A stretch of 64,000 nt of DNA, taken from Amphiura filiformis (Eukaryota; Echinodermata; Ophiuroidea; Amphilepidida; Amphiuridae). A model generated the notes under the pieces. That model saw only the letters and a list, made by a program, of their open reading frames with translations. It was not told the origin of the DNA and ran no database searches. The translations under genes were made by a program, and so were the position numbers. Of the stretch, positions 8,101-63,826 are shown piece by piece. The stretch covers positions 40,450,526 through 40,514,525 of the forward strand of contig NC_092637.1 in NCBI RefSeq assembly GCF_039555335.1, in the 5' to 3' direction. Every line of letters begins with the position of its first letter. Position 1 is the first letter of the stretch.

Positions 8101-11100
8101 GAAGGACGGAGTACTTTCATGATTCATTTACCCAATTCTAAATGAACCATGGGAGAGCGGAAGTCTGAATTTAATCTACAGATGTTGCCAATTAATTTCA
8201 GACTTTTTTTTCCAAGTCAATATCCCAGCAAATCGCCACCGCCGGGAATCGAACCCGGGACCTCATGCACTAAAGGCAAGTACTCTAACCATTGCGCCAC
8301 GCTCTCCCACTTTTATGGAGTTTTCAAAAATGACAATTCAATTAAATGGAATGACATTTTAAATGAAACCTATTACCTACCTAAGTAGGTTTTCCATTTT
8401 TACATTTTACAGATATTAATTTGTGCTATTGTAGGCACCTGTGCGCATTTTATTCATTTTTCAGAGTTTGTATTCGTTTTTGCATATCAATACCATAAAC
8501 TTAATGACATTTATGATCCTAGTGTGTACTTTCATGGAGCTGTAGGTAATTAAAAATTTAGTGAAATTCAGTAGTGAACCAGACATGAATCAATTTTCAA
8601 CTTTAAGTGCATATCATTCGAGGACTGTTAATGTCAAAAATACAATTTTTTAATATAATTTGTCATAAAATTTGTATTATATCGCAAATTTCAAAAATTC
8701 AAAATTATTTGATATCAGTTAAGGCTATTCCTCGTATTCAGAATGCACTTTGGTATGTCTGAGTGATGAGCTCTCAGCTCTCAGCCCTTAATATCAAAAA
8801 TGAGTTAGTAAAATGCGTGATTGTAACGCGTGATTTGTAAAAGTTTACAGAACTCGAGGGGAGACAACCCCTCTGCCAGCAACCCCTTCCCCTCAAGCCT
8901 GTCTCCGCTAGCAGATCTTTTAGATTTTACGTTGCTAACGTGCAGTGACTTTTTTCTTCAAAAATAGCCCCTGCTTACACACCCCACACACCATCACCAA
9001 CACCCCGATCCACACCCGCGACACTAAACGCACAACCACCAAACTCACCCCATCACACACACCCACTCACCCACTCACACACCCACACTTAAACCATTTA
9101 CTCCATCAAGGTGAAAACATCAAAATACATATTTGAAACGAGTACCACAAATTGATGAGAACACATTTGCATTAAAATTGTTCATAATATTGCACATGAT
9201 AATAATGATAAGAGATCACATTAGCTGGTCATTGTACAGTTTGGTGAGATAGGGTATTGGGCTTTCTTGATAGCGTTTAGTTCTGCAACGCACAGTGGTC
9301 AGATGATCTGAATTACGAAGTAGCCGACTTGTGCTACTGCCGCGCTGGGGAGGTAGCCATTCGCGGAATTGATGAGAACTCATCATTGCATTGACGAAAG
9401 TTACACAGATATGTTTCCTTCTCTCAGTCAACACAGTAAGGTTGCATGTGGTCAAAGCCTTATCATAGGTGGAGTATTTGTTGTCCAGGATGATCTTGCA
9501 AGCCCGCTTTTGCACACGTTCAATGGCGGATTGTTGTTTGGTGGTGATGCTTGAATGCCAAACCGGAGCAACGTATTCTGTAAGCGGTCTGACGTAGCCA
9601 ACGTATATTGTCACAAGATCTTCAGTCGGCAAGTCAAACCTTTTCAGTAGCTTAAGCATGTGAAGCCTGCCGTTGGCTTTCTTCAGCATTTGATCAATGT
9701 GAGTTGACCATGTCAAGTCAGCTGAGATTTGGACGCCAAGGATTTTGGTGACATCCACCCGATTAAGATCAGTGTTACAGAGTATCAGCACGTGATTTAG
9801 CGGTCGCTTTAAGAACGAGATTGACATATATGCGCACTTCTCAGGATTGAGCTTCATGTTGTTCTCATTTGACCAGTCTGCAAAAGTGTTCAACTGATCT
9901 TGGATGGTGGTAGGCTGCGTTGCCTTAGCTGATTCTATGATGGTCATGTCGTCAACATATTTGAGAACACAGATAGACGATGGTGTGTCAACAAGTGCAG
10001 AATTAATCATGACAAGAAATCCATTGGGACCGAATAAGGTGCCTTGGGGTAAGCTTCCCTTCAGCGTTATCCACGATGAAATGGCGCCTTTGTACCGAAC
10101 ACATTGTGCTCCTTGCGTAAGGAAACTGCAAAGCCACACAACCACAGGGGGGCGGACTCCAAGATTGATTAATTTGCGAATGAGTACATTATGGTTTATG
10201 CGGTCAAACGCTTTGCTGAAGTCAGTGACCACCAGCGTACTGTGGCTTCCTGGTTTGTCTGCATTTTTGTGTAGCGTACGCAACAGTTTGACAAGGTAGT
10301 GCGTAGTCGCCACTCCTTTCCGGTTTCCAAACTGGTTGGGATCAATATGTTCTTGAATATCGTCCATGAGCCACTGATTCATGAATGATTCGGCTACCTT
10401 AGCAAAATTCCTCAACTACACCAAGTATTTAGTTATGTTTAGTTGTGGCGTTAAAATACCTAAACAATTAAGTTTCTGACGATACAGTTCTTTCAGGGAC
10501 ACCCAGTATGAGCAGCTTTGGAAGGCGTTCCAGATACCATACATGTTACACTACTGTATGCAAATGCAATTCTTGTAAGAGGTAGACGGCCCTATTTAAG
10601 AAAGGTAGGGTAATGTAGTATGTTAGACCCAAATAATGAGTCAGTAAATAATGTAAATAATGGGTGAGGCGGAAATATTGTACGCGTAACCAAGCGTAAT
10701 GCTTTGCGTAGAATGTGTTACGGCGCTTGACCTATTATTGCGACCCATTTTGAATAGGGTCGCGAGGTAATATAATTAAAAATATTTATCGATGAAGTAA
10801 TGCTTTGGTCATTTTTGTGTGGATCAAATTATAACAGTAGATGAGCGTAAAAGACTTAGTCTTCTTGGGCAGCCACAGAATTCAAATCATATGCTATTTA
10901 GTTTAATCATTTTCTTACGATCAGGGCCGGATTTACCATAGGGCCAGATGGGCCCGGGCCCAGGGCCCCCATATTTTGGGGGCCCCCAAATTTGCCCTGT
11001 GCAGGGTACATCTTCCATTTAAGCCGAAAAACACCATGTTAGGATACAAAAAATGCAAAAACGTACTGGTCCATTATCACTGATTATATAGCAAATTTCA

Positions 11101-14100
11101 ACTTCAATGTGGGTAAAATAGTCTAAAATTGAAATTTTTGCGCGCTTCGCGCGCAATTATCCTAGTAAAATCTAAACACTTGGCAACTTGAGAGCACATG
11201 CCTTCTTCACGATACGTTTGGGGCCTCCAAATTTTGGCCTGGCCCAGGGCCCCCAAAAAGGTAAATCCGGCCCTGCTTACGATCCGTGACCATTCATAGC
11301 ATACCTTTGTTTCTCTGTGGATTTGACTAGATGGACATATTCTAAGAAAAAAAAGCTCCTTTGTCCCTCCCAAAAATGGCGGGAAAATCTATTTATAGCT
11401 CATTTTTCAAAAAAACATGAATATCTATATACCATGTTCTGGATAGGCTACAATGACAAATAATATGCCGTTTTCCACTATCTTTGGCATGCCCAACCTT
11501 TTAAGATAAAATTCAAAGTGTTGAGAGGTCATCTTGACCCCTAAATCCAAGATGGCCGCCAGTTCCATATTGAAAAACATGAAAATCGATATATCTTGAA
11601 GTGGATAGGCTATAATAACAAACAATGTGTCGTTTTCAACTATATTTGGCATGCAAAACCGTTTAAGATCATATTCAAAGAGTTTGGGGTCACATTGATC
11701 TCTAAATCCAAGATGGCCAACAGCGCCATATTGACAAAAACATGAAAATCTATATACCATGAAGTGGATAGGCTATACTGACAAACAATGTGTCGTTTTC
11801 AACTATTTTTGGCATGCCAACTCTTTTTTTGTCATATTCAAAGTGTTTGGGGGTCATCTTGAACCCTAAATCCAAGATGGCCACCAGCGTCATATTGAAA
11901 AACATGAAAATCGATATATCATGAAGTGGATTGACTATAATAACCAACAATGTGTCGTTTTCAACTATTTTGGCATGCAAAACCATTTAAGATAATATTC
12001 AAAGAGTTTGGGGTCACCTTGACTCCTAAATCCAAGATGGCCGCCAGCACCATATTGACAAAAACATGAAGTGGATAGGCTATACTGACAAATGTTCCAC
12101 TATTTTTGGCATGCCAAACCTTGTCATGTCGTATTCAAAGTGTTTGGTGGGGCATCTTGACCCCTAAATCCAAGATGACTGTCTAAGCCATGTCGAAAAA
12201 CATGAACATCGATATTTAAGATGTGACACACATGAGGCCAATGCTTATTTTTACTCAATTACTTATACTATAGATTTTGAAAGTGTTACCTTTGTTCTTT
12301 TAGGGAAGTTGCACGTTAAGAGCATGTGATGGAGAACAGAACAGACACTAAAGAGCTACAGAGCAACCAAGAGACTGATAAACTAGTATGCATGCTGATA
12401 GATCATTGCCCTGTAAAAGACAGTTTAGAAAAAGTAGATAAATGGGAGAACATTAAGGACAAACTTTTACAATGGAAGGGCCTTGATAAATTTCAACATG
12501 TCAATACAACAGTGGAATGGGATAAAGGACCTAAGGGTTATCATATGCATGCTACTTGTTGCACCACGATGTCTAACACACACGCTCACTGCCAAGCCAC
12601 AAAACGCAAGCACAAATCTGAGAAATCAAAAAAAAAAAAAAGGCTGGGATGTCCGGTCAGTAATCATCTTTCTCAGGACCTCCTCCCAAGAAACTTCGTT
12701 CAAGTATAGGTGTTCTGCATGATTAGGCATTGTGCGTCCACAAAAGTCTGGTAACCGGGACAAAAACACTTTTGTTACTTTTGACACAAGATGCATGGAG
12801 AAGATTCAAGGCACACAATATCTACATTGCAGATGAGGATACAAGAGAGCGGTTAGATACGTTTATAACGTCAATCCAGAGAGACAAACAGCCTTTGGCT
12901 TGGAAATCAGATACCACCGTCATTGCTGGCGTCAATATGTCAGCAATCAAGCGAGAGATAATCTCAGTGAAAATACAGAGCATCTACAGCATGTTGACCT
13001 TCGGGAGGCTCAAGCTTTGTTCTTTCAACATATCGAACAAGTCATATTTAAAGATCGTGAAATACGCACCCTTGAAGGACTGCTCCAAGATTACATTCGC
13101 ATTACTTCAAACTACGGGCACTTTTCCCAAGTAAGGTCCAGCTACCTCAAGGAACTTCTGATCAAAGAATTTGGAAATTTCACGAACGTATTCAGAAGAA
13201 TGTTAGTGAGCTTGTGTATGATACAAGAGCTGTCGGTACATACATCGAGGCCGCGCTGTTATCACTAGGAGTAACGGATGACCAGTTGGTCAACAATGTC
13301 GCAACACGACTTAGAGAACAGGTCATCAAAAGAACAACTGTTCCTTGGCTCCCGTACATACATGAGTTGGAGCAAGATGAAAACTTTAGTGAGCTCCTAC
13401 TAAAGCTCATTAACTGGTTGAAAAAACCTAACACAGGTTCAGCTGATGACAACCCAAAGGTCTGATAAATTTCGTCAATCTTAGAGAGCAATCGTTATTT
13501 ACGACAGGGGTTGGCATTTTGAAGGGGGAACCTGATTTTTTTTATCTTGAGGGGGTGAATTTTGTTGTTGAACCAGGAGGGGGATTGTTAAGTTTTAAAT
13601 GGAGAAATTCGTAAAAACAAGGGCGGAATTTGAAAATTTGCTTTCCCCCCTCGCGTCCACTAAAAATTGTTAGATTCCCCTTTTTAAACTTAACAATCTT
13701 CCCTCCTGGTTCAACAAACAATTTAGCGTTTCAACCTCAAGATCAAATAAAGAATTCGGGTTCCCCATCTAAATGCCCATTCCCCCTGTCGTAAATAACG
13801 ATCTCTCCCTAAGATTGACGCAATTGATCGGACCTTTGGGTTGTCATCAGTTAGACCTGTGTTAGGTTTTTTCAACCAGGTAATGAACTTTAGTAGGAGC
13901 TCACTCAAGTTTTCAGCTTGCTCCACCTCATGTATACGGGGTCCAAGGAACAGTGGTTGTTTTGATGACCTGTTCTGAGTCGTGTTGCGACATTCTGACC
14001 AACTGGTCATCCGTTACTTCCAGTGATAACAGCGCGGCCTCGATGGCTCGAAGTGCTTGTATCACAAGCTCACCAACTTTCTTCTGAATACGTACGTGAA

Positions 14101-15478
14101 ATCAGTTTAATCAGAAGTTCCTTGAGGTAGCTGGACCTTACTTGGGAAAAGTGCCCGTAGTTTGAAGTAATGCGAATGTAATCACTTGTTCGATATGTTG
14201 AAAGAACAAAGCTTGAGCCTCCCGAACGTTAACATGCATTCTGCATTTAGAGGTCAAGATGCTCCCTTGAACACTATTGAATAATGACATGATTTCCAAG
14301 CCAAAAGGTTTGTTTGCCAAAGATAGTGGAATATTTGTTATAAAGGTATCATAGCCTATCCACTCTGCAATGTAGATAGTGTGTGCCTTGAATCTTCTCC
14401 ATGCATCTTGTGTCAAAAGTAACAAAAGTGGTTTTGTCCCGGTTATGACTTGTGTTGGCGCACAATGGCAGAACACCTATACTTGAACGAACTTTCTTGG
14501 GAGGAGGTCCTGAAAAGGTGACCGGACATCCCAAACCTTTGATTTCTCAGATTTGTGCTTGCGTTTTGTGGCTTGGCATAGCATGCATCCTAAATGGTAT
14601 TGCATGCCAAAAATAGTTGAAATTTAAAGACACATTGTTGTTATTTACTCTACATGATATGATCTTTTCATGTTTTTCAATATGACGCTGGCGGCAATCT
14701 TTCCATGAAAAGATAGAACTTAAAAACTTTCAGATGACAAAGACTTTGAATATGACAAAAAGATTTGGCATGCCAAAAATAGTGGAAAACGACACATTGT
14801 TTGTCAGTATAGTATAGCCTATCCACTTCATGGTATATAGATTTTCATGTTTTTGTCAATATGGCGCTGGCGGCCATCTTGGATTTAGGGGAAAACGACA
14901 ATGTGACCCCAAACTCTTTGAATATGATCTTAAACGGTTCTGCATGCCAAATATAGTTTAAAACGACACATTGTTTGTTATTATAGCCTATCCACTTCAC
15001 GATATATCGATTTTCATGTTTTTCAATATGTAACTGGCGGCCATCTTGGATTTAGGGGTCAAGATGACCTCTCAACACTTTGAATTTTATCTTAAAAGGT
15101 TGGGCATGCCAAAGATAGTGGAAAACGGCATATTATTTGTCATTATAGCCTATCCAGAACATGGTATATAGATATTCATGTTTTTCAAAATGTCACCGGC
15201 GGCCATTTTGAAAAATGAGCTATAAATAGATTTTCCCGCCATTTTGGGAGGGACATAGGAGCTATTTTTTCTTAGAATATGTCCATCTAGTCAAATCCAC
15301 AGAGAAACAAAGGTATGCTATGAATGGTCACGGATCGTAAGAAAATTATTCAACTAATTGGGGTTATCGTGGAACTAACATTAAGCTTTTCATTGATTGT
15401 ATTTACAGAATCCTTGTTATTCTGAAGCACCTGGAAAATGGATACGAAACATATCTGAAAGCTGAAGTCACGGAATAA
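3709..15478 (+). CDS. Secreted NTF2-like/SnoaL-like domain protein, four exons
   Basis: The exons are 3709-3793, 4487-4672, 5446-5608 and 15409-15478. All have AG acceptors and GT donors, the phases agree (1, 1, 2), and together they give 504 nt, that is 167 residues plus stop. Exon 1 encodes a signal peptide (MMKITLFALIISAVLLKSC). Exon 2 carries the helical part of an NTF2-like cone (YEELFKLHDAAAMARKYTDD, CVYII, then GILRGREG). Exon 3 ends in strands (SYMKIICVMHFF), and exon 4 adds the closing strands ILVILKHLENGYETYLKAE. The order matches DUF4440/SnoaL-like proteins, which bind small ligands or associate with partners; no enzymatic role can be assigned. The 9.8-kb intron 3 holds Penelope, SINE, LINE and foldback insertions. 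An AATAAA (15474-15479) overlaps the stop codon. A possible TATA-like 'attataaat' lies at about 3626. The model is inferred, but the four-way phase agreement is strong. Confidence 0.82.
4117..4222. repeat. Half copy of a palindromic MITE
   Basis: The words 'ggattaggatttagttatatt', 'gataatattttttaatc' and 'gtatttttctggaatgggg' match the right half of the palindromic element at 29365-29614. Only one arm is present. It lies in intron 1 of the NTF2-like gene. Confidence 0.5.
4929..5159. repeat. (ATT)n microsatellite
   Basis: About 230 bp of nearly pure ATT/TTA triplets with a few interruptions (ttagtgtt near 4985 and 5088). It lies in intron 2 of the NTF2-like gene. The open frame through it on the minus strand is poly-Asn and is an artefact of the repeat. 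Confidence 0.97.
5830..6410. mobile_element. Penelope-like element remnants, inverted pair
   Basis: On the plus strand, 6040-6350 reads as a decayed GIY-YIG endonuclease tail in more than one frame: FGTRLGEHQAEVKKANEKKF, then DWEEFKILGRERL, then NTLNREEGTYLLSHVYDPLL. At 5830-6055 a piece resembling the 3' UTR of the same element lies on the minus strand; 'gtctgcaaaagagactaag' occurs at the end of both pieces in opposite orientation. Inverted partial copies next to each other are usual for Penelope elements. Reverse transcriptase is missing. The piece lies in intron 3 of the NTF2-like gene. Confidence 0.65.
6420..7890. other. Intronic AT-rich stretch without a recognised feature
   Basis: The short open frames here (for example 6517-6699) have no family signature or splice context that I can support. 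It lies within intron 3 of the NTF2-like gene. Confidence 0.6.
7896..8309 (-). mobile_element. tRNA-derived SINE with target-site duplication
   Basis: Read on the minus strand, the head is tRNA-like: 'tggcgcaatggttagagta' fits an A box and 'gggttcgattccc' a B box, about 45 nt apart. The body contains 'cttcggaggggacgttaag' and 'cggtccctgtgtgcagag', words I associate with conserved-body SINEs of marine invertebrates. The tail is an (aatc)n-like 'caaatcaaatcaaaa'. The plus-strand hexamer ACTTTT flanks both sides (7890-7895 and 8310-8315) and fits a target-site duplication. It would be transcribed by RNA polymerase III from the internal boxes. It lies in intron 3 of the NTF2-like gene, antisense to it. 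Confidence 0.85.
8560..8800. repeat. Interspersed repeat fragment, related to 16690-16810
   Basis: The words 'tcgaggactgttaa', 'aaaattatttga' and 'attcagaatgca' occur in the same order at both places. No TIR or coding content was recognised. Confidence 0.5.
8960..10415 (-). mobile_element. Jockey/CR1-type LINE, 3' half of ORF2 with tail
   Basis: The open frame 9216-10415 (399 residues) is the palm-to-C-terminal part of a non-LTR reverse transcriptase. It has VVTDFSKAFDRINH (motif A), LPQGTLFGPNGFLVMI (motif B-like), YVDDMTI (motif C) and a thumb region ILGVQISADLTWSTHID with YVAPVWHSS and IERVQKRACKIILD. The endonuclease and the first RT motifs are missing, so it is 5'-truncated near 10415, as usual for LINEs. 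Downstream on the minus strand is a short 3' UTR and a TG/GT-rich stretch (complement of 8976-9100, rich in cacacac). It lies antisense in intron 3 of the NTF2-like gene. The intact 399-codon frame suggests a fairly recent insertion. Confidence 0.92.
10922..11275. mobile_element. hAT-type MITE (354 bp) nested in foldback 1
   Basis: The element has perfect 16-bp terminal inverted repeats beginning CAGGGCCGGATTTACC. It is flanked by the 8-bp duplication CTTACGAT (10914-10921 and 11276-11283), the duplication size of hAT transposons. The opposite arm of the foldback has the uninterrupted site (atcgtaag at about 15334), which proves an insertion after the foldback formed. The interior is GC-rich near the ends and non-coding. 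Confidence 0.93.
11416..12210. repeat. ~162-bp tandem units in the left arm of foldback 1
   Basis: Five units can be followed by the recurring 'aaatccaagatgg' at 11545, 11707, 11871, 12031 and 12169 (steps of about 162, 164, 160 and 138). Each unit also carries 'ggcatgccaa', 'gataggctata' and 'aacatgaa'. The matching array in the right arm lies at about 14590-15225 in reverse complement. The cores resemble the YY1-type motif AAGATGGC(C/G)GC, a point of resemblance only. Confidence 0.88.
12326..13465 (+). pseudogene. Decayed ORF in left arm of foldback 1, N-terminal part of an uncharacterised protein family
   Basis: The reading moves through at least three frames. It starts at 12326 (MMENRTDTKELQSNQETDKL). 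It passes a basic stretch (KRKHKSEKSKKKKRLGCP), a segment TFVTFDTRCMEKIQG, an HRHCWRQYVS motif near 12920, and YLKELLIKEFG. It ends with VGTYIEAALLSLGVTD, TVPWLPYIHELEQDENFSEL and a final DDNPKV near 13462. Cys/His pairs suggest a degenerate zinc-binding region. I recognise the word order from long predicted proteins in cnidarians, lancelets and echinoderms, without a known function. The frames are shifted (around 12650-12730 and near 13185) and include stops, so no intact product is expected. Confidence 0.7.
13470..13722. other. Centre of foldback 1
   Basis: Here the arms meet: 'ggttcaac' flanked by 'cctcctggttcaacaa' at about 13700 and its complement near 13570. Both sides carry the same G-rich/C-rich short sequence in opposite orientation, so the spacer between arms is under about 120 bp. 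Confidence 0.7.
13723..14570 (-). pseudogene. Inverted second copy of the foldback 1 ORF
   Basis: On the minus strand the same protein segments reappear in fragments: TFVTFDTRCMEKIQG (about 14400-14440), VREAQALFFQHIEQVI near 14200, then RIHEVEQAENLSELLLKF and DDNPKVRSIASILGR (13810-13940). It is shorter and more broken than the left-arm copy and has several internal deletions. It belongs to the right arm of foldback 1. Confidence 0.68.
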
Positions 15479-15554
15479 ATATTGCGGCAACATGTAGTTG
15501 TCATGCTTTTCAGTATTATAATACATCAGATTAACATCTTTAAAACTACTCGGG

Positions 15555-16069
15555 CTAAAAAAAAATTGTTATGTTGGCGTAACCCGACCGACCCTATTAT
15601 ATATTAGGCACTTTTTTTTGTTGAAAAAAAAAATAAAAAAACGATTGACCGACCCTAAAACAAGCAAAACCTTTTTTTTGTGTCCAAAAATACGACGGTG
15701 CTCCTCGGAAAAATGGAATTTTACTCAACCCGGAAGTTCAAATCTGGTTCAGAAACAATATTCCAATCGATTAGAAGGGTGGAATTACACGTTTTGGTCG
15801 GAGACTTTGCGTAGCAACTGTGTGATGAATTCCAACACGTATATCGCGCAAAGAGTCCAGGCAGCGAGAGACGATTTAACTCGCGGATATCGAGACATGC
15901 AATTGATCGAGCCAATGACCTTTCATACCGACATCTGGATACAGTGGTATGCAGTTTTGAAGAAGTATAAAGAGGGGAAGATGGTGAAGTTGCGTTCAAC
16001 ATTGTTCAAAAACAGTTCCTAAAAAAGTTTCGATCAGCCCGTTACGCCAACATAACAATTTTTTTGGCC
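15555..16069. mobile_element. ~515-bp MITE with long TIRs enclosing a 134-codon frame
   Basis: The ends are inverted: 'aattgttatgttggcgtaac' near 15575 and 'gttacgccaacataacaatt' near 16050, extended outward by A-rich/T-rich runs and ggcc/ggct. Inside, 15618-16022 is open on the plus strand for 134 codons, with words such as GWNYTFWSETLRSNCVMNSN and FHTDIWIQWYAVLKKYKEG. I recognise no family. The interior composition is less AT-rich than the surroundings, which could mean a captured host exon. It starts just 77 bp after the stop codon of the NTF2-like gene. Confidence 0.7.
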
Positions 16070-16235
16070 TAGTTCATGTTGTCAAATGGATTTGTAAAAA
16101 CGGCGTTTCTTTTGATTGTACTATTCATATAATTGAATAATTTAGGATTGGATTTATTCCTTTATAAAATTTCTCGGGATCAAGCAAGCATGAACAATAT
16201 TTATTTTCAAAATAGACTTTAAAAGTCTATTTTTA

Positions 16236-16600
16236 TTTCAGCTTAATCTAGCAGTTGCGTTACTTTGTAATTGCAATAAGATACGTTGTAATAAAACATG
16301 ATTTAAAATATTTATATATTAATTTTCTCTGAGGACTTGCAGCAAATTGATTGATCTTATTAAAGTTTTGTTGGTGTGGTGGTGTGGCTAGTGATCAGGT
16401 AATGATGATAATGACGACGAAGACGACGATGATGATGTTGATGACGATGACATATGATAATGATGATAATTAATACACAAACGACAAAGAGGAACAGACA
16501 TGCCTGGCTTATATTTCTATTTTTAACATGGAAAGTTCAAATGACCTCCTGTCTGCTTGCAGATTATGCATATCTCTTTATTGTCATAAATCACATCATC
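16236..16600. repeat. GAT-rich interspersed repeat, copy 2
   Basis: It has the same order of words as 3115-3500, with the GAT-rich part at about 16405-16470 and the end 'tctctttattgtcataaatc'. A partial third pass ('gtgtggctagtgatcaggtaatg') follows at 16612-16640. Confidence 0.75.
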
Positions 16601-17765: not shown

Positions 17766-17767
17766 TT

Positions 17768-17958: not shown

Positions 17959-18094
17959 ATTCTGAAGAAGCCATCAGCTAAAACAGTGAGTAATTTTCAA
18001 TTTGTCTATCCAAAAATCTCACCAAATTACTTATGACGTTTTAGTTTGAGTATTTCAGACTAAAATGCTGTTTAAAAAACAGACAAACAACTTA

Positions 18095-18487: not shown

Positions 18488-20365
18488 TTAGCGTCCGCTG
18501 CAATTAAAACAAATAGGTAGTATGCGCAATCTCCGTACTATCGGGAGATCTTCATTTATCTTGTCGCCCGTTGGATTGTCGCCAGGGCGTTGTACATTCA
18601 CGTTGTCGACCGACGGGCGAGAGTCTTGTACATTCACATTGTCGATCGGCGGGCGAGGGTCTTGTACATTCACATTGTCGACCGGCGGGCGAGGGTCTTG
18701 TTCATTCACATTGTAAACCGGCGGGCGAGGGTCTTGTACATTCACATTGTCGACAGGCGGGCGAGGGTCTTGCACATTCACATTGTCGACTGGCGGGCGA
18801 GGGTCTTGCACATTCACATTGTCGACTGGCGGGCGAGGGTCTTGTACATTCCCATTGTCGACCGGCGGGCGAGGGTCTTGCACATTCACATTGTCGACCG
18901 GCGGGCGAGGTTCTTGTACATTCACATTGTCGACAGGCGGGCGAGGGTCTTGCACGTTCACATTGTCGACCGGCGGGCGAGGGTCTTGTACATTCACGTT
19001 GTCGACTGGCGGGCGAGGGTCTTGTACATTCACGTAGTCGACTGGCGGGCGAGGGTCTTGTACATTCACATTGACGACCGGCGGGCGAGGGTCTTGTACA
19101 TTCACATTGTCGACCGGCGGGCGAGGGTCTTGCACATTCACATTGTCGACTGGCGGGCGAGGGTCTTGCGCATTCACATTGTTGACCGGCGGGCGAGGGT
19201 CTTGTACATTCACATTGTCGACAGGCGGGCGCGGGTCTTGCACGTTCACATTGTCGACCGGCGGGCGAGGGTCTTGTACATTCACATTGTCGACTGGCGG
19301 GCGAGGGTCTTGTACATTCACATTGACGACCGGCGGGCGAGGGTCTTGTTCATTCACATTGTCGACCGGCGGGGGAGGGTCTTGTACATTCACGTTGTCG
19401 ACTGGCGGGCGAGGGTCTTGTACATTCACATTGTCGACCGGCGGGCGAGGGTCTTGTACATTCACATTGTCGACCGGCGGGTGAGGGTCTTGTACATTCA
19501 CGTTGTCGACCGGCGGGCGAGGGTCTTGTACATTCACATTGTCAACCGGTGGGCGAGGGTCTTGTACATTGACATTGTCGACCGGCGGGCGAGGGTCTTG
19601 TACATTCACATTGTCGACCGGCGGGCGAGGGTCTTGCACATTGACATTGTCGACAGGCGGGCGAGGGTCTTGCACATTCACATTGTCGACTGGTGGGCGA
19701 GGGTCTTGTACATTCCCATTGTCGACCGGCGGGCGAGGGTCTTGCACATTCCCATTGTCGACCGGCGGGCGAGGGTCTTGCACATTCACATTGTCGACTG
19801 GCGGGCGAGGATCTTGCACGTTCACATTATTGACCGGCGGGCGAGGGTCTTGTACATTCACATTGTTGACAGGCGGGCGAGGGTCTTGCACATTCACATT
19901 GTCGACTGGCGGGCGAGGGTCTTGTAAATTCCCATTGTCGACCGGCGGGCGAGGGTCTTGCACATTCTCATTGTCGACCGGCGGGCGAGGGTCTTGCACA
20001 TTCACATTGTCGATTGGCGGGCGAGGGTCTTGCACATTCACATTGTTGACCGGCGGGCGAGGGTCTTGTACATTCACGACAGGCGGGCGAGGGTCTTGCA
20101 CATTCACATTGTCGACTGGCGGGAGAGGGTCTTGTACATTCCCATTGTCGACCGGCGGGCGAGGGTCTTGCACATTCACATTGTTGACCGGCGGGCGAGG
20201 GTCTTGCACATTCACATTGTCGACCGGCGGGCGAGGGTCTAGTACATTCGTATTGTCGGACGGCAGCGGAGGGACTTGTCGTTTATCAATGGCCGCTCCA
20301 TAGACCTGTGCAGTCACAGTCATCATAACCAACACTAGGTGAAGCTTAAGAGAAAAAGGCCCCAT
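18488..20365 (-). CDS. Secreted precursor with about 45 tandem 12-residue repeats
   Basis: The frame encodes 625 residues. Residues 1-24 are a clear signal peptide (MGPFSLKLHLVLVMMTVTAQ, then VYGA), followed by AIDKR, a possible dibasic cleavage site. From about residue 36 to 590 the protein is a tandem array with consensus PPVDNVNVQDPR; variants are mostly D/N, V/G and V/I, and one unit is 10 long. The C-terminus leaves the repeat and ends IVRRLRILPICFNCSGR, with a dibasic RR, two close cysteines and a terminal Gly-Arg of the kind used for amidation. Just before the ATG the minus strand reads a pyrimidine tract and TTTCAG, a good 3' splice site, so an upstream non-coding exon is likely. The layout suggests a secreted extracellular or peptide-precursor protein; no homologue is recognised. 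Antisense frames of up to 445 codons exist only because the 36-bp unit keeps every frame open. Confidence 0.82.
   Translation of the reverse strand: MGPFSLKLHLVLVMMTVTAQVYGAAIDKRQVPPLPSDNTNVLDPRPPVDNVNVQDPRPPVNNVNVQDPRPPVDNGNVQDPLPPVDNVNVQDPRPPVVNVQDPRPPVNNVNVQDPRPPIDNVNVQDPRPPVDNENVQDPRPPVDNGNLQDPRPPVDNVNVQDPRPPVNNVNVQDPRPPVNNVNVQDPRPPVDNVNVQDPRPPVDNGNVQDPRPPVDNGNVQDPRPPVDNVNVQDPRPPVDNVNVQDPRPPVDNVNVQDPRPPVDNVNVQDPRPPVDNVNVQDPRPPVDNVNVQDPHPPVDNVNVQDPRPPVDNVNVQDPRPPVDNVNVQDPPPPVDNVNEQDPRPPVVNVNVQDPRPPVDNVNVQDPRPPVDNVNVQDPRPPVDNVNVQDPRPPVNNVNAQDPRPPVDNVNVQDPRPPVDNVNVQDPRPPVVNVNVQDPRPPVDYVNVQDPRPPVDNVNVQDPRPPVDNVNVQDPRPPVDNVNVQEPRPPVDNVNVQDPRPPVDNGNVQDPRPPVDNVNVQDPRPPVDNVNVQDPRPPVDNVNVQDPRPPVYNVNEQDPRPPVDNVNVQDPRPPIDNVNVQDSRPSVDNVNVQRPGDNPTGDKINEDLPIVRRLRILPICFNCSGR
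18590..20240. repeat. 36-bp minisatellite array inside the secreted precursor gene
   Basis: About 45 units have the plus-strand core 'cgggcgagggtcttgtacat', with unit-to-unit differences concentrated at a few positions (tgtaca/tgcaca, gaccgg/gactgg/gacagg). One unit near 20075 is 6 bp shorter but stays in frame. The homogeneity implies recent expansion or gene conversion. Confidence 0.95.
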
Positions 20366-26305: not shown

Positions 26306-26877
26306 AAACTGGGCTCAAAAAGAAACTTATAATTTTTTCACAAGGTCATATCTTAAAATCCTCTCCATAAAAATGAACAAAATTTACATATAGGATTACT
26401 TCAATACTCAAATACATGTCAGTAACCAAGCAGTTGTCCAACTGACACAACAGCAAAATGGAATGACACGGAACAGCTTCCTGGCAGGCGAATAATTGGC
26501 ACCCAGCAAAAGAAATCTGTGAGAATGCGTACACGTACACAGGCGATAATTTCCAAAGAGTATGTGGAATAATGTGGAATGGGGCTGCTTCTGCTTTTCA
26601 CACATCTTCAAGAAACAGGTCATGTTCCACACAATTCCAATTACTCATAGATTTCTTGTGTTGGGTGCCAATTAGTAAGCTGTGAATGTGGTCCAGGAAG
26701 CTGTTCCACGTCAGTGCATTTTGCTGTTGTGTCAGTTGGGCAATTGTTGAGTTACTGACCAGTGTTTAGAGTAGAGCATTGAAGTAATCCTGTGTGCAAT
26801 TTTGGGTCATTTTTATAGACAGGATGTTAAGATATGACCATCTGAAAAATTATAAGTTTCTTTTTGAGCTCAGTTTG
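26306..26877. mobile_element. Palindromic MITE (~570 bp, arms ~250 bp)
   Basis: The left arm from 'gctcaaaaagaaacttataa' is answered by 'ttataagtttctttttgagc' on the right. Inner words also mirror each other: 'caactgacacaacagcaaaatg' against 'cattttgctgttgtgtcagttg'. Arms show roughly a tenth of positions changed. Non-coding. Confidence 0.85.
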
Positions 26878-26989
26878 TGATCAAAATAGCCTTTACATTT
26901 TACGCCAGCATGCTCCCATTTAGGCAAAATATTTGGCTAAATTCAGGCTTTGATTACCAGTAATTATAAACGGGAGGTTGCATTATATA

Positions 26990-27258
26990 GCGTCACCCTC
27001 ATAACCAAAGTGCCTAAGTCATTATTACATGTTTCTCATTTCCAATTTTGATTTTCTGAGTAATAAACCCATAATTAATCAAATTTCCAGGTTCATTCTT
27101 CATTATCTTGTGGAATACATCAAAAGAGATGAATTCTACAAGTTAATGAAGAATGCGGCTGGAAATTTGATTAATTATGGGTTTATTACTTGGAAAATCA
27201 AAATTGTAAATGAGAAACATGTAATAATGACTTAGGCACTTTGGTTATGAGGGTGACG
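26990..27258. mobile_element. Palindromic MITE (~268 bp)
   Basis: The left arm 'cgtcaccctcataaccaaag' and 'ttattacatgtttctcattt' is mirrored by 'aaatgagaaacatgtaataa' and 'ctttggttatgagggtgacg'. Arms of about 110 bp surround a spacer of about 50 bp. Non-coding. Confidence 0.87.
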
Positions 27259-41726: not shown

Positions 41727-42283
41727 GTATTGATCTCACCGGCATGTCAGATGTATAGAGCTGATCCACCATTGCAACCCTCATCATAGGACATGCATGT
41801 CAGATGAATAGAGCTGAGCCACCATTGCAGAAGATTTCAGATGACACTAACAATTATTTTATTTTCTCTTTCAGCAACAAAATACTAAAAGTGCATACAC
41901 CTCTTAGTCTCACGGTAGATTGTAACGTGTATGCAACCCCTTTTTTCTTTTTGCTGTTGGAACAAATATGTAAATAGAACATTCAAGGACTAGAAAAATG
42001 ACTAGCCTCAAATGGACAAACTTCCATCATAAAAGCAAGGAATTTTAGCACAATAATATTGCTGAGCACAAGTGCTTACTGGTTACCAAACTTTATCATA
42101 GGCCTAGTTCTGATCACAAATCTAAATTACCATCTAAAATGATGGAAGTTTGTCCATTTGAGGCTAGTCATTTTTCTAGTCCTTGAATGTTCTATTTACA
42201 TATTTGTTCCAACAGCAAAAAAGAAAAAAGGGGTTGCATACACGTTACAATCTACCGTGAGACTAAGAGGTGTATGCACTTTT
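41727..42283. repeat. 5' repeat of the BEL/Pao copy: direct repeat plus inverted duplicate
   Basis: 41727-42030 repeats 47353-47655 almost exactly. It is followed by 42031-42138, which is the reverse complement of 47656-47763, and by 42139-42283, an inverted copy of about 41886-42030. The result is a hairpin-capable structure with arms of about 145 bp directly upstream of pol. Confidence 0.9.
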
Positions 42284-47352: not shown

Positions 47353-47763
47353 GTATTGATCTCACCGGCATGTCAGATGTATAGAGCTGATCCACCATTG
47401 CAACCCTCATCATAGGACATGCATGTCAGATGAATAGAGCTGAGCCACCATTGCAGAAGATTTCAGATGACACTAACAATTATTTTATTTTCTCTTTCAG
47501 CAACAAAATACTAAAAGTGCATACACCTCTTAGTCTCACGGTAGATTGTAACGTGTATGCAACCCCTTTTTCTTTTTGCTGTTGGAACAAATATGTAAAT
47601 AGAACATTCAAGTACTAGAAAAATGACTAGCCTCAAATGGACAAACTTCCATCATTTTAGATGGTAATTTAGATTTGTGATCAGAACTAGGCCTATGATA
47701 AAGTTTGGTAACCAGTAAGCACTTGTGCTCAGCAATATTATTGTGCTAAAATTCCTTGCTTTT
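47353..47763. repeat. 3' copy of the BEL/Pao internal repeat
   Basis: This is the uninverted form of the sequence duplicated at 41727-42283. It lies between pol and the 3' LTR and appears to be ordinary 3' untranslated sequence of the element. Confidence 0.85.
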
Positions 47764-48508
47764 AGATATTCAAAGGTTTTCAGTGAAGCATGCAACATTG
47801 TGTATGGCATCATATTGGATAAATCTCATATGTTTGCTTTGTGTAGTCAATGTAGCTCTCAAGCTATTTCCTCTCATTCATTTTCAAGCAAACTTTTGAG
47901 TTCCAAGTGAAGTCATGCAGACATGTTTCTAGTTTCATGTGTTATTATATTCAACATGCATGCAAGGACCATACATGTGATTTCTTCAAGAGCTGTTTTA
48001 AGACTGAACTGCAACAATTGATGCAAGTGAACTGTCAGACATTTAACTTTATGATCTACATGGAGATCCATTATGTTTTGCAAATGAGCATCATTAGCAC
48101 AGGTGTGCATAAATAATCTTTTCAGTTAAGAATGTTAAGTTGTTTGTGAATCAACAAAGTTAATTTGCAAATGGTTAGTTAGGAGATTTGGTATCAGGAA
48201 ATTACTGTTCCTCTCTCCAATTCCTTGCAAAAACATGCAAGAGTTTCAAATTTATTTGATCTGTTTATCACAGGTTAATGTTTTCAAATCTTGGAATATT
48301 CATGATCCAAATTTAGTTCTGCTTTTTTGAAAAGTTTCCAGATTTAGCTAAACATGTTTGTTGACTAATTGTTTACGTGTTCAAAACATTTCAAGTTTTA
48401 AATGTTATCGTTCAAATGTTAGACATTCTGATTTAAAGTGATTTTGTCAATGTAAATATTTGGCCTTTTGGTAATTGTATGTCTGTGAACATACCAATTA
48501 GAGGGGCG

Positions 48509-55264: not shown

Positions 55265-55363
55265 TTAGTGTGATAGCTGTTTGTTCTATTAAGGTCTAGA
55301 ATTGAAAATTATGTAATATTTTGTTAGAAACATTAATAAATGATCACATCCAACAACCGTGAA
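55265..55363. repeat. Right-end fragment of the GGTTGTTTGATG MITE
   Basis: 'aaggtctagaattgaaaatt' through 'aataaatgatcacatccaac' matches the last ~95 bp of the element at 22761-23917. Confidence 0.65.
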
Positions 55364-55447
55364 TATTTTTGATGTTTTATTATCAACTTGAACCGTTATT
55401 ATTGGATGCTTTACATCCAATATTTATTGGTCTCGCTATGAGTTTTA

Positions 55448-55929
55448 AAATAAACATCTCAAAAAAGTAACTAACCCCCCTTAAATAATGACCATTATTC
55501 ACAAACGGGTGATTGTATTACAAATCTGTAAAATGCGCTGGAAGCAAAATTTATTTCTGCACATTTTGACACCTCATTTGTAGCAATTGACTAAATATTG
55601 ACGTCACATCGTACATTTAAATCAATGTAGCCCAAGATTCTATTGATTTTGCATTCAGTGTAATGGACGAAAATCTTTGAAATGATATCTGAGTGTTTTT
55701 GTATTGTAAAAATTTGTATGTAAGTGCAACTTTCAAATCTGGACCTCACTACATTAAATTGACCGGTGTTTTATTGTTTTTCTGGGCTATCGTATCAAAT
55801 GAGGTGTCAAAAGGCGCAGACATAAATTCTGCTTCTAACGCATTTTACAGATTTGTAATACAATCGCCCGTTTTTGAATAATGTTCATTATGTAAGGGGG
55901 GTTAGTTACCTTTTTTGAGATGTTTATTT
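55448..55929. mobile_element. Palindromic MITE (~480 bp, arms ~110 bp)
   Basis: 'aaataaacatctcaaaaaag' on the left faces 'cttttttgagatgtttattt' on the right. The arms continue through 'taactaaccccc', 'acaaatctgtaaaatgcg' and 'tgacacctcattt' with their complements. The interior is non-coding. Confidence 0.87.
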
Positions 55930-56378
55930 GACTCGGCTACGTGTCGTCCAGTAATCTAAGTGTCCAATATTTTCAAACTCCTAAATAGCTCCACTAATAT
56001 TATTATGGGCTTAGTCGACCCATTATAATATTAGAAACTGTAAAAATCCAACTTAAACATGTTTAGTCCTATAATAATTATTCCCAAAAGTTTGTGTTTT
56101 CTGTTCTGTAAATAATTGTGAAACTTGAGTGCGGACACCAGAATCTTATTTTGATGACTATAAAGTGGTGATGCCAATACACGCAGAGTATGCCAGGAGG
56201 TACGTTTGACTATACATATATTTTGGGTTGATTTGATTAACTATACCATTGGGAATTTTACAGCTTCATAAAAGAAAGAAATTCATTTGACACGCACTCG
56301 TAAAAAACAATCGCGATGGATCAGAAGTCATGCACTCTTAAAATTACTGGGTAAATTTAATCTTCACCTAACCATTAA

Positions 56379-56665
56379 GATTGTTTGATATATGTTAAAC
56401 TAAATTATTAGCTCAACACTGATGGCGCTTTTATTAAATCTTGTTAGTATTATGCATAAAAAGCGCCCTCAATTTGCACACATACAGCTTATTTATTAAG
56501 TAAAAATTACCACACAAAAGCAGAGAGGAAAATCAATTTTAAAAATATTATAAGTATAATATTTGCGCCGCATATTACAGTGAAAGCTGTTGGTATTGTC
56601 CAAGTATGGAATAGCAAATTATATGTTTGGTAAGAAAAAATAATAAATAATCCCATCAAACAACC
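56379..56665. mobile_element. Short copy of the GGTTGTTTGATG MITE (287 bp)
   Basis: It starts gattgtttgata and ends catcaaacaacc. The subterminal 'tgatggcgcttttatt' and 'gcgccctcaatttgcacaca' match the long copy at 22761-23917. It lacks that copy's nested MITE. Confidence 0.72.
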
Positions 56666-56759
56666 GCGTAACTAAGGTATTTTGTTATTGGAAAAGGTCA
56701 TGCAGTTCTAATTTTATACGTTCATGTACACTATGCTGTATACGGTACATCATTTTTAT

Positions 56760-58187
56760 TTGATCATTTCAATCTTTATTGCAACCATTAAAATCATACA
56801 AAGTTTAAGCATAATGATTGAAAAGAAAACACATAAACCAGACTAGAGAACGGAGAAGACAAAATGTCATCCCCCGTATCTCCGCAGGTGCATAAATACC
56901 AATACATACAAAACATACAACACTGTACTAGAAAATATACCTTCAGTAAAATTTTTAAAAAGAAAAACATTTTAAAAGGGAATCCAAAAAGTTAAATGAT
57001 GATCTTAAGCTCTTTATATCTCCTAGAGTTTCGATATCTGCTCAAATGACTTTTGATATTGATTTGCTTTGACCATGGAAGTAAGAGACATGGAAGCTGG
57101 TCGATCCAACACCTATTGAATTATTTACGTAACATTCTATAGAGGGTACGTATCAAGCTATTGTGATAACAATGTAGTCAGCGTGTCTTTGATGTGGATC
57201 AGACTTGCCGCCTTTATTGCCAGTTCGTTTATTTACAGGTCTATTATTTTGAGCAAAAATCGTGTTTTTCTTGATTATGTTTCAAGTATGTTGTTTTAAA
57301 AAAAAAAAAAGTGACAGGGATGTTAGATTTGTAATCCATAATTACAGAAATCCAATCAAAATATCGATTTCTACCCTATACTTACAGATTTTCTTAAACT
57401 TCAAAATATTGGAAATCATGCATTTACGTCTAAACCGCTAATTAGCGGTAATAATTGATATGCGCACTTGGCACATGCTTTACATTATAAAATGAATCCT
57501 GCATCTATTTGTGTGCCCGGGGCTGCCTGAAATTGCTGTTGACCAGAATGTTCCAGAGTCTGGTATTATCTTTACATTTTGCGTAAAATAAATTGTATTT
57601 CATTTCATTTTCTGTTTTAAAACTGCTATCTGAAAGTCTAGCATATATATGCATTTAATCGGTAGGTTTTCACATAATTACATACTTTTAATAAAATTGT
57701 ATAAATTAAACTGATAGCATTCTGACCATTACGTAGGGATTTTATAAAATCTGTTTGTGTTCATAAAACTAGTCATGCACTGCGGTAATATAACACAGCC
57801 CATTATCAGGACTTAGTACACGACCTGGTACTGCTATTGATTTTTAAGCGGAACTTTGATTTTAGACATGGTACACGTTGACCATGCGTTGACTCAATTG
57901 TTCCACTTCCAACTGTACTGCTTTTGTTCAGTATCGCGGCAAGTATGATACTCACTTTGATGTAGTATTTGACCAGCTTCCATGTGTATTACTTCCATGC
58001 TTTGACTTTCACATTTTTGTGAGTGTATAAGTCTTAAGCAGGTGTTAGCAACTGTATTTTATTGCCTGTGTTGAACTTTGTAGGTCATTTTACTAGTAAT
58101 TCTTAAATTAGTATTGATTTGATGATAAACACACGACCAACTTTGGAAACAGACAGAATTGTCTTCATTTCGGACAAATCAGCTATC
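56760..58187. other. Upstream region of the second FReD gene, no feature recognised
   Basis: The part near 56760-56900 ('tcaatctttattgcaacc') could be the 3' end of a LINE on the minus strand, but this is not certain. No promoter motif is convincing. Confidence 0.4.
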
Positions 58188-61100
58188 ATGGGTTCTTCAA
58201 TGCGTAATTCTGCGGGATTTGTTTTCCTATTTTATGCAGGCCTATGTGTTATTGCCATCAACGCCCAGGTAGATTCGGGTGGCGGTACTACTGACACTGC
58301 AACGGTAAGTTTACATGGTAGTAAATTATATATGTGGCAACCTAATATAGCCTACTTTTTTGAATGAGATACTAGTATTCGCAGCCCCCATCAGCACAGT
58401 CCCTATAGGATAATAGGATGTTTGTTTGCAAAAATCAAGGTTGGCAATTTTATAACTACGCCCTGATCAGCATTAAGGAGGCAGTTTTGGAGTTCTTTGG
58501 TAAAGTATTTGCTCTTTCATGATTCAAATCGCTTTGTTGAACAATTTAAGTCAGCTATAACAGACCACGCAGTACAACAAAACCATGTTATCAATTAGGA
58601 AAATGCAAAAATCCTTAGCAAGGAGTGCGACGCTAATGCCAGATAGGCCTATTGCCAAGAAATTAAAGTGGATGATCCTCTCTTGACCTGAAATACACCC
58701 TCTACTGTCGGGATGTGTCCTACTGGAAGTAAAGATCTACCAACATCATTCTGATGACGCTTATCGACCATGATAGGCAAAATCTTCAACAGTGAGTTCT
58801 GTTCAAAAGAAATTTATCTTACCATTTTAATACTGTTTGCCACAAAGGTTTATAGTTCACTTATCAATTTGGGTTTCCCTCAGGAACATACTACAGCAGA
58901 GGAGGAACTTCTTGCGGAAAACACAGTGGAAACACTTGTTAATCTGATATGCGATTGCAAAATAAAAGGTAATTAAAAAAAATTAAGATTTCATATGTCA
59001 ATGTTCAATGCCACGCGTTCAGACTTCAGTATTTAAAACTCATCTTGTCAAATATTGCCGAGGGGCTAGCGCAAGAATTCATACCTACACTGTTATATCT
59101 GCATTAGCAGATAAGGATCTTATTTAGGCCAATAGTATTAGCTATAACCCTAAAATTTCTCATAACAAGCTGATTTTTTCAGGATAGGTCCAGAAACATG
59201 TGTAGAATCAAATTCCAAAAGTCCCCGAAAATCCCCCTTGTGCTTCCTTCAAAATCCAAGATGGCGTCCAAAATAGCCGCCATTTTCAGTTTTTATCATA
59301 ACTTTGCCCCCAGACATGTTAAAATCACAAACAAAGCATCTAAATATATGTTTTGAGGTACAAGGAATGTTTTAAAAACATTTGCAAGAGGTTTCAATAA
59401 TCCTAAGTAGCTAAAATCCAAGATGGCGTCCAAAATGGCCGCCATTTTCAGTTTTTATCATAACTTTGCCCCCAGACATGTTAAAATCACAAACAAAGCA
59501 TCTAAATATATATTTTGAGGTACAAGGAATGTTTTAAAAACATTTGCAAAAGGTTTCAATGATCCTAAGTAGCCAAATTCCAATATGGTGGACAAAATGG
59601 CCGCCTTTTTAGTAAGTAAAATTAGTTTTCAACCAGACATGTGTTTAAGATGTGTTAATTGGCATTGGAGAAAGTTCAAAACTCATGATTTGTAAGCAGC
59701 CTTGTAATGCACATCATCCAAATTCACTACCATTATTACCATCATTATTTTACAATATTGATTCAGTGCTTTTATCATGTGTACAATACAATAGTTACCA
59801 TTATTTTTTATTTGCCTCCAAAAGAGCTGAGCTCATACCAAGATGGCTTAAGCCTATGTTCACATCGGTATCCCCGTGATGTAATGTAATCAAATGGTAC
59901 ACCTTAAACTTGATCAACTTGCACTGTGTTTTCGGCATTAATGTTCTTCAATGCTGGTTCAGTCTCCTCATTGTCTCCAACTAGTACAGGTGCTGTGTTG
60001 CTGCAAGACTGACCACAGCATTTGCTGCACATCAATGTACAGAAGAGTCTCAAGTTTCTTGCAGCTGCATGTCATGTTGTTTCAGCCATCTTGTTTGCAT
60101 CCACATTATATCATGTTGAGCAATGTGTCTGGTGCAACAGCGAGTTCTGTTTCTACTGGAACAAGAATTCCATCTTGTGATCTCCATCCCCAGTCAGTTG
60201 GACTTAGGTTGTTCCCCATCCATTCTTGAACCGTGAGAAAAGTGCCATATCCATCAAATACAACAATCGGGTGTGCTCCATAATGCTTTAGCATGTGTGA
60301 TGTGTAATTCTGACATATGCCTGAATAGGTGGAGGGATGTGGCCAAATGGTGGCCAAATGTCGAAGTAGGTAACCACCATCTACTACAAAGAGACAATTC
60401 TCTGGCAGCTTGGAATGCTCAGTGAACGATTTCAACAGAAGGCCCAGGGAACTCTTTGGCGATTTACGCATAAGGTCATCTTCAAAGAGAGAAGGTGGCT
60501 GAGGACCTAGTTCGTACGTAAAGAACGACGCTATCTCAGAGCTGTTGTTCAGTACACATGTGATTCTATTATATAATAGAGTCGGATTCACTTCTACTTG
60601 TTGTCCCCTAACTCGCACCATCTTGTCCTTTGCTCCAATCATAGTAACCTTGTCATTTCGGCGTAAGGCAATGTTTGTAAACTTTGTACCCATTTTTTCT
60701 ATTGCTGACTTCGTGCCAACTTCCACCGCTCTATCACAGTTAGCGGATGAATCTGCTACAGTCCCAGTTGACACGTACCAGACGATCCAGTCCATACCCA
60801 GCAAAGGGGGATGTGCCTTCAACCAACCAACAAAAACTTTACGATCCCCTATGTTCCCGTATGAACACCCGTGAACTGCTCTAAAGCATCATAATCTGGG
60901 GCACATCGAGAAAGTGCGTGGACTCACTTGGTTAATGTACTGTCTGTGATGCCGCGACCATGTGTCATTCCCCCTGATGTCTTCAAAGTCCACAACAAAA
61001 AACTGCTCAATGGTTTGGTCAGAGAAGTTTCCACCCCAGAAAAAATCTAGACGTCGGATGGTGAAATATCCCTTGTCTGTGAACAGTTGGTACTCATCTG

Positions 61101-63826
61101 GGGGCATGTTTTCCCCAAAGACTCCATCTGTTGTAAATACAACTTTGCAGATTTGGCATAGTGGAGATGCCCTGCAGCGTAGAAGTGAGGCATCATCTCT
61201 CTTATGCAGTAGAGGCGGAGCTTCCAATTCCCTGTTCTTTCAGCTCTAATGAAATGCCGAATATATTAAAGGGCCACCTGTCTGATGTATTGCACCCACA
61301 GCTTCGCAATTCTGCTTTTACCTGCTTTGATGTCTCTTCACGCTATTACAGGCTGTGACACAGTCTCAGCCATTTATCGTCGAGGAAAGCGCAAACCCCG
61401 AACAAGAAACATGAATATAACTTGTTAGATACCTTTACAAATGCCAGCAGCATGCATGATGAGGTACAGAGAGCAGGGGAGAGCTTCATCCTGAAGATGT
61501 ATGGGGCTAGCAATGGTTCATTGAATGAATACCGCCACACTGTATACAAACGGGCAATTGGTCGCAGTAACCTTAGCTCTTCATTTGAGCTCGCGAGTTT
61601 ACCCCCAACTTGTGCTGCTGCAAAACAGCACTCATTCCGCACTTTCCTCACGGTTCAAGAATGGATGGGGAACAACCTAAGTCCAACTGACTGGGAATGG
61701 AGATCACAAGATGGAATTCTTGTTCAAGTAGAAACAGAACCCGCTGTTGCACCAGACACATTGCTCAACATGGTATCATGTGGATGCAAACAAGATGCAA
61801 CAACATGACATGCAGCTGCAAGAAACTTGAGACTCTTCTGTACATTGATGTGCAGCAAATGCTGTGGTCAGTCTTGCAGCAACACAGCACCTGTACTAGT
61901 TGGGGACAATGAGGAGGAGACCGAACCAACATTGCAGAACATTAATGCAGGAGACACAGTGCAAGTTGATTAAGTTTAAGGTATACCATTTGATTGCATT
62001 ACATCACATGGATACCGATGTGAACATAGGCTTAAGTCATCTTGGCATGAGCTCAGCTAGTTTGGAGGCAAATAGAAAATAATGGTAACTATTGTATTGT
62101 ACACATGGTAAAAGCACTGAATCAATATTGTAAAATAATGATGGTAATAATGGTAGTGAATTTGGATGATGTGCATTATAAGTCTGCTTACAAATCATGA
62201 GTTTTGAACTTTCTGCAATGCCAATTAACACATCTTAAACACTTCTTAGGCGGTCATTTTGGACGCCATCTTATATTTTGGCTTTATATCTAGGTATTGA
62301 AATCCTTCTAGTACATTTTGAATATATCCATTGTACCTCAAACCTATGTGAGATATTTTGTATATGTATTTAACAAGTCTGGTTGAAAACTAATTTTACT
62401 TTACGCCATATTGGAATTTGGCTACTTAGGATCATTGAAACCTCTTGTAAATGTTTTTAAAACATTCCTTGTACCTCAAAATATATATTTAGATGCTTTG
62501 TTTGTGATTTTAACATGTCTGGGTGCAAAGTTATGATAAAAACTGAAAATGGTGGCCATTTTGGACGCCATCTTGGATTTTGGCTACTTAGGATCATTGA
62601 AACCTCTTGCAAATGTTTTTAAAACATTCCTTGTACCTCAAAACATTATATTTAGATGCTTTGTTTGTGATTTTAACATGTCTGGGGGCAAAATTATGAT
62701 AAAAACTGAAAATGGCGGCCATTTTGGACGCCATCTTGGATTTTGAAGGAAGCACAAGGGGGATTCTCGGGGACTTTTGGAATTTGATTCTATACATATT
62801 CCTGGACCTATCCTGAAAAAATCAGCTTGTTATGAGAAATTTTGACCTTTTAATGATATATGAGCTAATACTATTGGCCTAATTATCAGACCTAGAAATT
62901 GCACTTACTTGTGTACGTTTCTGAAAGACCACCTGTTGCCTTTAACATAACTTGACATTTGACTGCCGCAGCTATTTGCAACCGACGCGGTAGAAGTAGT
63001 TCTAGCATCGATCGTACCAACTGGCAACACTAAGATCAGTGTTCGAACTACTTCTAGCGTCTGTTACCAATAGAAGTCACTACCTATGAAGTACGGATAA
63101 AGGAAATAGGTGTTGCTGAAACGTAAACAAGTACATGTAATTTCTGGAACAGATACTGAGAACCAATCTACTGAGTTTACTATAATTTTACCGATCCTGA
63201 TGAATCTGTTCAACCATTATATAGCTGCCCTGTAGGCTGTTATATATAATAGATATTTGACAAGTTAACAAATTTGCCGACGCTACCTTCGTGCACTATA
63301 CATTAGGCGGATGCACTGTGTTTAGCGTTAGCTTTGGATAATTAATTATTTTATTATTTTCTCCCCGACTTCATCGGGTGAAAAATCAATATCAATAAAT
63401 ATCTAATGCTAACTTTAAAAAGGGCGCCTCCGCTTAATAAAGGCGACGTTTTAAAGGCGGTGTTTAAAGTAGGGTCGGTCAGGCGATTTTTTTCTCCTGG
63501 AGGCTAAGATTACCATAAAATTTCAACAAAACCAATTCAAAAGATTTTTTGCAGACCTTATTTTCAAAAAATATTCAGCCCAAATTAATATATTTTGCCC
63601 CCTAAACGGTTGATTTTAGCATTTTTTTCCCGTCGCCTAACCGTCGATATTGACATTCCAAAAAACAGAAACATGTGGACAAGTGACGGTACCGGAGCCT
63701 CAAGACTGCTATGACCTGTTACAACAAGGCCACACCAAAAGTGGCAAATATACCATCTACCCATTTGGCAATGACGGGCCTCTCCTTGTATATTGTGATA
63801 TGGAATCCGACGGAGGGGGTTGGACG
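58188..63826 (+). CDS. Fibrinogen-related domain (FReD) protein, 5' part (continues beyond the window)
   Basis: Exon 1 (58188-58304) encodes [20 protein letters not shown] and VIAINAQ, a signal peptide, and ends in phase 0 at gtaagt. An in-frame ATG lies further upstream at 58119, but the signal peptide favours 58188 or the next Met at 58203. Exon 2 (58884-58968, 85 bp) encodes [18 protein letters not shown] and LICDCKIK. Exon 3 (63669-63826, 158 bp) begins the fibrinogen domain: [35 protein letters not shown]. Exons 2 and 3 equal in length and phase those of the minus-strand FReD gene at 29940-34945, and their sequences are close. The cysteine pair in LICDCK may support oligomerisation, an inference. 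Intron 2 (4.7 kb) is almost filled by foldback 2. The remaining FReD exons would lie to the right of the window. Confidence 0.85.
59255..59610. repeat. ~162-bp units, left arm of foldback 2
   Basis: 'tccaagatggcgtccaaaat' occurs at 59255 and 59417, and a diverged 'tccaatatggtgg' follows near 59578. Units include 'cagacatgttaaaatcac', 'gaggtacaaggaatg' and 'ggccgccattttcag'. The mirror array is at about 62255-62760. Confidence 0.85.
60106..61240 (-). pseudogene. Uncharacterised protein, middle and C-terminal parts (foldback 2, left half)
   Basis: On the minus strand, 60889-61227 has [31 protein letters not shown] and [11 protein letters not shown]. After a stop, 60106-60822 continues with [63 protein letters not shown] and PIVVFDGYG. 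It then jumps to [20 protein letters not shown], which implies an internal deletion. VVDGGYLL and VVFDGYG are the kind of strand-acid motifs seen in PIN/FEN-like nucleases. I recall the same order in long predicted proteins of lancelets, corals and echinoderms; their role is not established. Missing parts and stops make it non-functional here. Confidence 0.7.
61338..61975 (+). pseudogene. Same protein family, C-terminal part (foldback 2, right half)
   Basis: The plus strand reads [19 protein letters not shown] near 61338. After a frame change, 61422-61808 gives [60 protein letters not shown] and [14 protein letters not shown] further frame supplies CSCKKL and a Cys-rich tail. The end of this segment is the mirror of the minus-strand tail at 59950-60235. 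It follows in protein order the part missing on the left. Confidence 0.7.
62903..63178. mobile_element. Diverged copy of the palindromic MITE at 32770-33015
   Basis: 'acttacttgtgtacgtttc' on the left faces 'gaaacgtaaacaagtaca' on the right, with 'gtagaagtagttc' and 'gaactacttctag' in the centre. The tail 'ctactgagttta' to 'ccgatcctgatgaat' also matches. Confidence 0.7.
63302..63437. mobile_element. Short MITE, copy of 27588-27710
   Basis: 'attaggcgga' at the left and 'gcgcctccgcttaat' at the right mirror each other. The interior shares 'gttagctttgga' and 'taattattttatta'. Confidence 0.68.

Follow-up and report, generated by a model that had tools for sequence, protein, structure and literature searches.

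We analysed a 64,000-nt stretch of Amphiura filiformis DNA (contig NC_092637.1, positions 40,450,526–40,514,525; hereafter the window) that contains two foldback structures, foldback 1 (FB1) and foldback 2 (FB2). Both were found by comparing the window with itself, and their limits were refined by the last bases shared between the arms. A preliminary description, made from the sequence, had placed foldbacks with multi-kb inverted arms at 10897–15357 and 59125–62886, and the self-comparison bears this out, with limits of 10899–15356 and 59125–62881. FB1 and FB2 are genuine imperfect palindromes, each of them an inverted duplication of a single transposon end.

Arms, unit arrays and ends of the foldbacks

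The structural features are as follows, with strand given where it applies.

10899–15356: FB1, a transposon left end present twice in inverted orientation; termini TAG...CTA
10896–10898 and 15357–15359: ATT, candidate target duplication of FB1
10922–11275: hAT-like non-autonomous insert in the FB1 left end; termini CAGGGCCGG...CCGGCCCTG, read by eye
11410–12070, plus strand: left array of FB1, units of period 162, with cores at 11546, 11707, 11871 and 12031
13591–13690: FB1 centre, a short spacer separating the aligned arms
14738–15210, minus strand: right array of FB1, units of period 162, with cores at 14873 and 15040
59125–62881: FB2, two right-end fragments joined head to head; termini TAGGCC...GGCCTA
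59122–59124 and 62882–62884: ATT, candidate target duplication of FB2
59250–59610, plus strand: FB2 left unit array, period 162
62403–62745, minus strand: FB2 right unit array, period 163

BLAST aligns the inverted arms of FB1 (11276–11993 with 14587–15341) at 87% identity with gaps counted, and returns in addition a self-palindrome at 12590–14578. Without gaps the identity is 96.0%, with 61 mismatches in 1526 aligned bases (4.0%); the left arm has 24 gaps (116 bp) and the right arm 47 (783 bp). Roughly 590 bp of the left arm (11994–12589), where inner units and the beginning of the coding lie, are nearly without a counterpart on the right. The right arm (14587–15341 and the rest) is indel-rich, its 47 gaps standing against about 4% substitutions. 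The arms of FB2 (59121–60245 and 61639–62885) align in two BLAST pieces of 86% and 90% identity with gaps, and at 96.4% without them (40 mismatches in 1096 bases, 3.6%); gaps are far fewer than in FB1, with 6 in the left arm (151 bp) and 6 in the right (29 bp).

All four outer arrays have a period of 162 or 163 in Tandem Repeats Finder, and every one of them carries an inward-facing 11-base core, TCCAAGATGGC, in agreement with the ~162-bp units and cores reported for both foldbacks in the preliminary description. Counting both strands, the window holds 11 instances of the core, 10 of which lie inside the foldbacks. The other is an isolated GCCATCTTGGA at 5280, outside them, near which a second core was not found. 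Outside the core, the consensus unit bodies of FB1 and FB2 were matched as well by 44 of 2000 shuffles, and their alignment ranked 4th among 51 rotations; for nine single pairs of FB1 and FB2 units, 4 to 121 of 300 shuffles did as well in global alignment and 17 to 184 of 300 in local alignment. Judged by these comparisons, the unit bodies appear at best weakly alike.

The outermost bases of both foldbacks read TAG...CTA, and both flanks of each read ATT. Beyond the common TAG, the outer ends of FB1 match those of FB2 no better than shuffles do (149 and 161 of 300 as good), whereas the two ends of each foldback match one another strongly (0 of 300). A TAG start at the BLAST limit is found in none of the 11 other palindromic stretches of the window. 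At FB2, the tetranucleotide TTAT (59120–59123 and 62883–62886) fits equally well as a candidate duplication; such 3- or 4-bp candidates are short and come from one copy per foldback, and coincidence is possible. The ATT triplets on either side of both suggest that each foldback was mobilised, or arose, as one piece with its two ends intact. The two have in common the core, the period, the orientation, the TAG end and the ATT flank, features that may stem from a distant common ancestor or from what the machinery requires in both cases. The hAT-like insert lies inside the left end of FB1 between exact 8-bp duplications (CTTACGAT, 10914–10921 and 11276–11283) and must be younger than the arm that holds it.

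Coding sequence in FB1 and FB2

Both foldbacks carry coding sequence in both arms; residue numbers refer to P0107, a relative of the FB2 protein.

12320–13465, plus strand: FB1 left-arm coding, broken across several frames
13723–14476, minus strand: FB1 right-arm coding, the same part as on the left, with many small deletions
59958–60249, minus strand: FB2 left copy, C-terminal part after an internal deletion; residues 1017–1110
60226–61330, minus strand: FB2 left copy, mid-protein up to VVDGGYLL...FDGYG; about residues 400–777
61314–61330: FB2 head-to-head junction; no intervening sequence seen by eye
61314–61925, plus strand: FB2 right copy, to the cysteine-rich end; residues 910–1110

The directions accord with the earlier account, in which coding ran from outside to centre in FB1 and from centre to outside, with the middle and cysteine-rich end of a protein, in both arms of FB2. 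The start of the FB2 left copy was set by eye; tblastn extends it to residue 385 at 61379, where it overlaps the right copy. The left copy has lost about 240 residues by internal deletion, and the right copy begins further downstream in the protein. We rejected a shared spacer at the centre of FB2, where two distinct portions of one protein meet head to head. The two copies span unequal stretches of P0107, and FB2 is therefore a fusion of two right-end (right-half) transposon fragments with different inner breakpoints.

The protein encoded in FB2 belongs to a widespread invertebrate family that databases label 'uncharacterized' or 'Tesmin/TSO1-like'. Its members combine a FEN1/EXO1-type nuclease fold having seven conserved acidic sites with an upstream D-D-E pattern and a cysteine-rich tail, the nuclease being read on two relatives, P0035 and P0107, and on alignments of them, as the FB2 copies hold only parts. 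A fold search with P0107 gave ten significant rows, all FEN1/EXO1-type nucleases, so that a transposase fold is neither found nor excluded by it; RAG1 appeared at rank 39 with an E value of 0.17. The positions D94/D97, D260 and E503 are conserved among the FB2 relatives, the order of secondary structure is plausible, and DUF6589 matches 8 of 40 relatives at an E value of 0.01. The D-D-E region is a probable DDE transposase. No P-element model was among the five Pfam families that the 40 relatives matched at that E value, in a scan covering relatives of FB2; when six pieces of the window were compared with Pfam, every match fell short of the cut-off. The nuclease is about 13% identical, in the aligned part, to FEN1/EXO1/XPG 5′ nucleases and, unlike them, sits in a protein exceeding 1100 residues that also has a cysteine-rich tail and a DDE-like region. 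This provides a structural account of a large family, namely that of a FEN1/EXO1-fold nuclease within a probable transposase.

The coding of FB1 behaved differently. In pairwise BLAST, its pieces gave nothing below an E value of 0.2 against 214 fetched proteins of the FB2 family. Against a profile of ten family N-termini FB1 scored 14.5, compared with a mean of 13.2 and a maximum of 22.5 for 40 shuffles, while six family members used as a positive control scored 15–20 times above it. FB1 showed no nuclease coding, locus scans of viral and genome contigs found no relatives of its pieces, and one piece searched against phage records was unmatched. As sampled, the coding of FB1 falls outside the protein family of FB2 and is at most a remote relative. 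The proposal that the two coding parts belong to one protein is consequently not upheld, with 0 of 214 fetched relatives matching FB1 and a profile score equal to the shuffled background.

Parentage and formation of the foldbacks

Taken together, FB1 and FB2 are probably non-autonomous foldbacks whose parents were two different transposon families, broadly of one kind, that of FB2 being AcademX-like. AcademX elements, which have an XPG-type nuclease, form a lineage within the Academ superfamily of DNA transposons that was reportedly described by Kojima in 2020. The FB2 parent fits AcademX, by description, in its encoded nuclease and the ATT flanks; ATT (or TTAT) around FB2 and ATT around FB1 would suit a 3- or 4-bp duplication. 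According to PMC10045372, target duplications are 3 or 4 bp in AcademX and 9 or 10 bp in AcademH, a difference linked there to the nuclease and helicase that these encode; an Academ expansion is reported in bivalves (PMC10294476). A difference is that FB2 has unit arrays and is a foldback derivative, and neither was noticed for Academ in the titles and abstract openings searched, which is weak evidence of absence.

Foldbacks of this architecture are already known, together with a published repair explanation, from Galileo, a Drosophila element of the P superfamily. In the portions consulted of PMC3573991, 38 of 170 D. mojavensis copies have two recombinant terminal inverted repeats (TIRs), some TIRs carry ~210 bp tandem repeats, and the authors propose that TIR1 serves as template for the repair of TIR2 and that inner sequence is copied along with it. 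FB1 and FB2 display the same arrangement of long, internally repetitive TIRs with tandem units and, at one end, inner sequence recruited in inverted orientation from the other side. Galileo differs, as far as that text describes it, in its P-type transposase, 7-bp flanks and ~210 bp repeats, and in that the recruited stretches lie beside the coding region, with examples of 121 and 441 bp. The Tetris foldback of D. virilis has ~220-bp internal tandem repeats in its TIRs and is apparently non-autonomous (PMC4079207, in the part drawn on); the likeness, by description only, lies in the tandem units.

The preliminary description took the foldbacks for opposite ends of one element family, FB1 as a left-end and FB2 as a right-end dimer. 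Its one-end inverted duplications stand, left in FB1 and right in FB2; its single parent gives way to two similar-looking but different ones. The one-family view fails because the FB1 coding is unmatched among the relatives sampled, the outer ends differ, sharing no terminal inverted repeat, and the unit bodies are at best weakly alike; a version in which one family has ends of different sequence would take in the common core, period and flank, and we consider it unlikely. Somewhat less likely still is that long TIRs with units and partial coding are the normal state and that the foldbacks are simple internal-deletion derivatives, formed without end-copying. Long TIRs containing tandem units are indeed described for foldback-type transposons (PMC4079207 and PMC3573991), and internal deletions are visible, in the FB2 left copy and, by eye, in P0016; however, a normal element would then carry the start or end of its transposase coding twice, once in each repeat, and the FB2 copies, which meet head to head, begin at different positions in the protein. 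Long palindromes are easily misassembled, and the structures could be assembly or cloning artefacts; a mirrored artefact would give near-identical arms, so that the ~4% substitutions and many indels between the arms, with a hAT-like insert in one arm only, count against this, and we judge it highly improbable.

The doubled single ends, the unequal inner breakpoints of FB2 and its head-to-head junction are seen directly; under the preferred reading of two parent families, the following mechanism is proposed. One protein of the FB2 parent would join the probable DDE transposase, the FEN1-type 5′ nuclease and the cysteine-rich tail; the transposase would read the ~162-bp terminal units and the nuclease would trim the cut ends. 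A break at one end of the element might be mended with the opposite end as template or, if the template switched by folding back, with the broken end's own strand. The outcome would be one and the same end twice, face to face, together with a stretch of inner coding sequence. Equal ends of this kind could remain usable by enzyme made elsewhere. The case suggests that end-copying, already known to form foldbacks in the Galileo elements of flies, does so in other DNA transposons too, and a core, period and flank common to two otherwise different elements hint at what the transposase reads. A bolder proposal, which we hold to be unlikely, is that AcademX-like families, though deeply diverged, have retained a common terminal grammar (TAG at the end, ATT as target, an inward 11-bp core every ~162 bp, close to a nucleosome repeat) and that, owing to their FEN1-type nuclease, one-end inverted dimers arise regularly, not by accident, during end processing or gap repair.

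Other features of the window

Just left of FB1, a 399-residue open frame on the minus strand (9216–10415) looks reverse transcriptase-like by eye, and the fetched protein P0141 matches within it over 73 columns (E value 1.9e-7). Also outside the foldbacks, a tRNA-like match at 8240–8301 on the minus strand (39.1 bits), perhaps a tRNA-derived repeat, is the sole Rfam match; ARAGORN reported none. An array of the 36-bp unit TTGTACATTCACATTGTCGACCGGCGGGCGAGGGTC occupies 18590–20279 in 47 copies. Two neighbouring palindromic stretches of 571 and 268 bp lie at 26306–27258, and a 397-bp palindromic element at 41887–42283 recurs in part, with 98.8% identity, at a distance of 5 kb (47513–47764).
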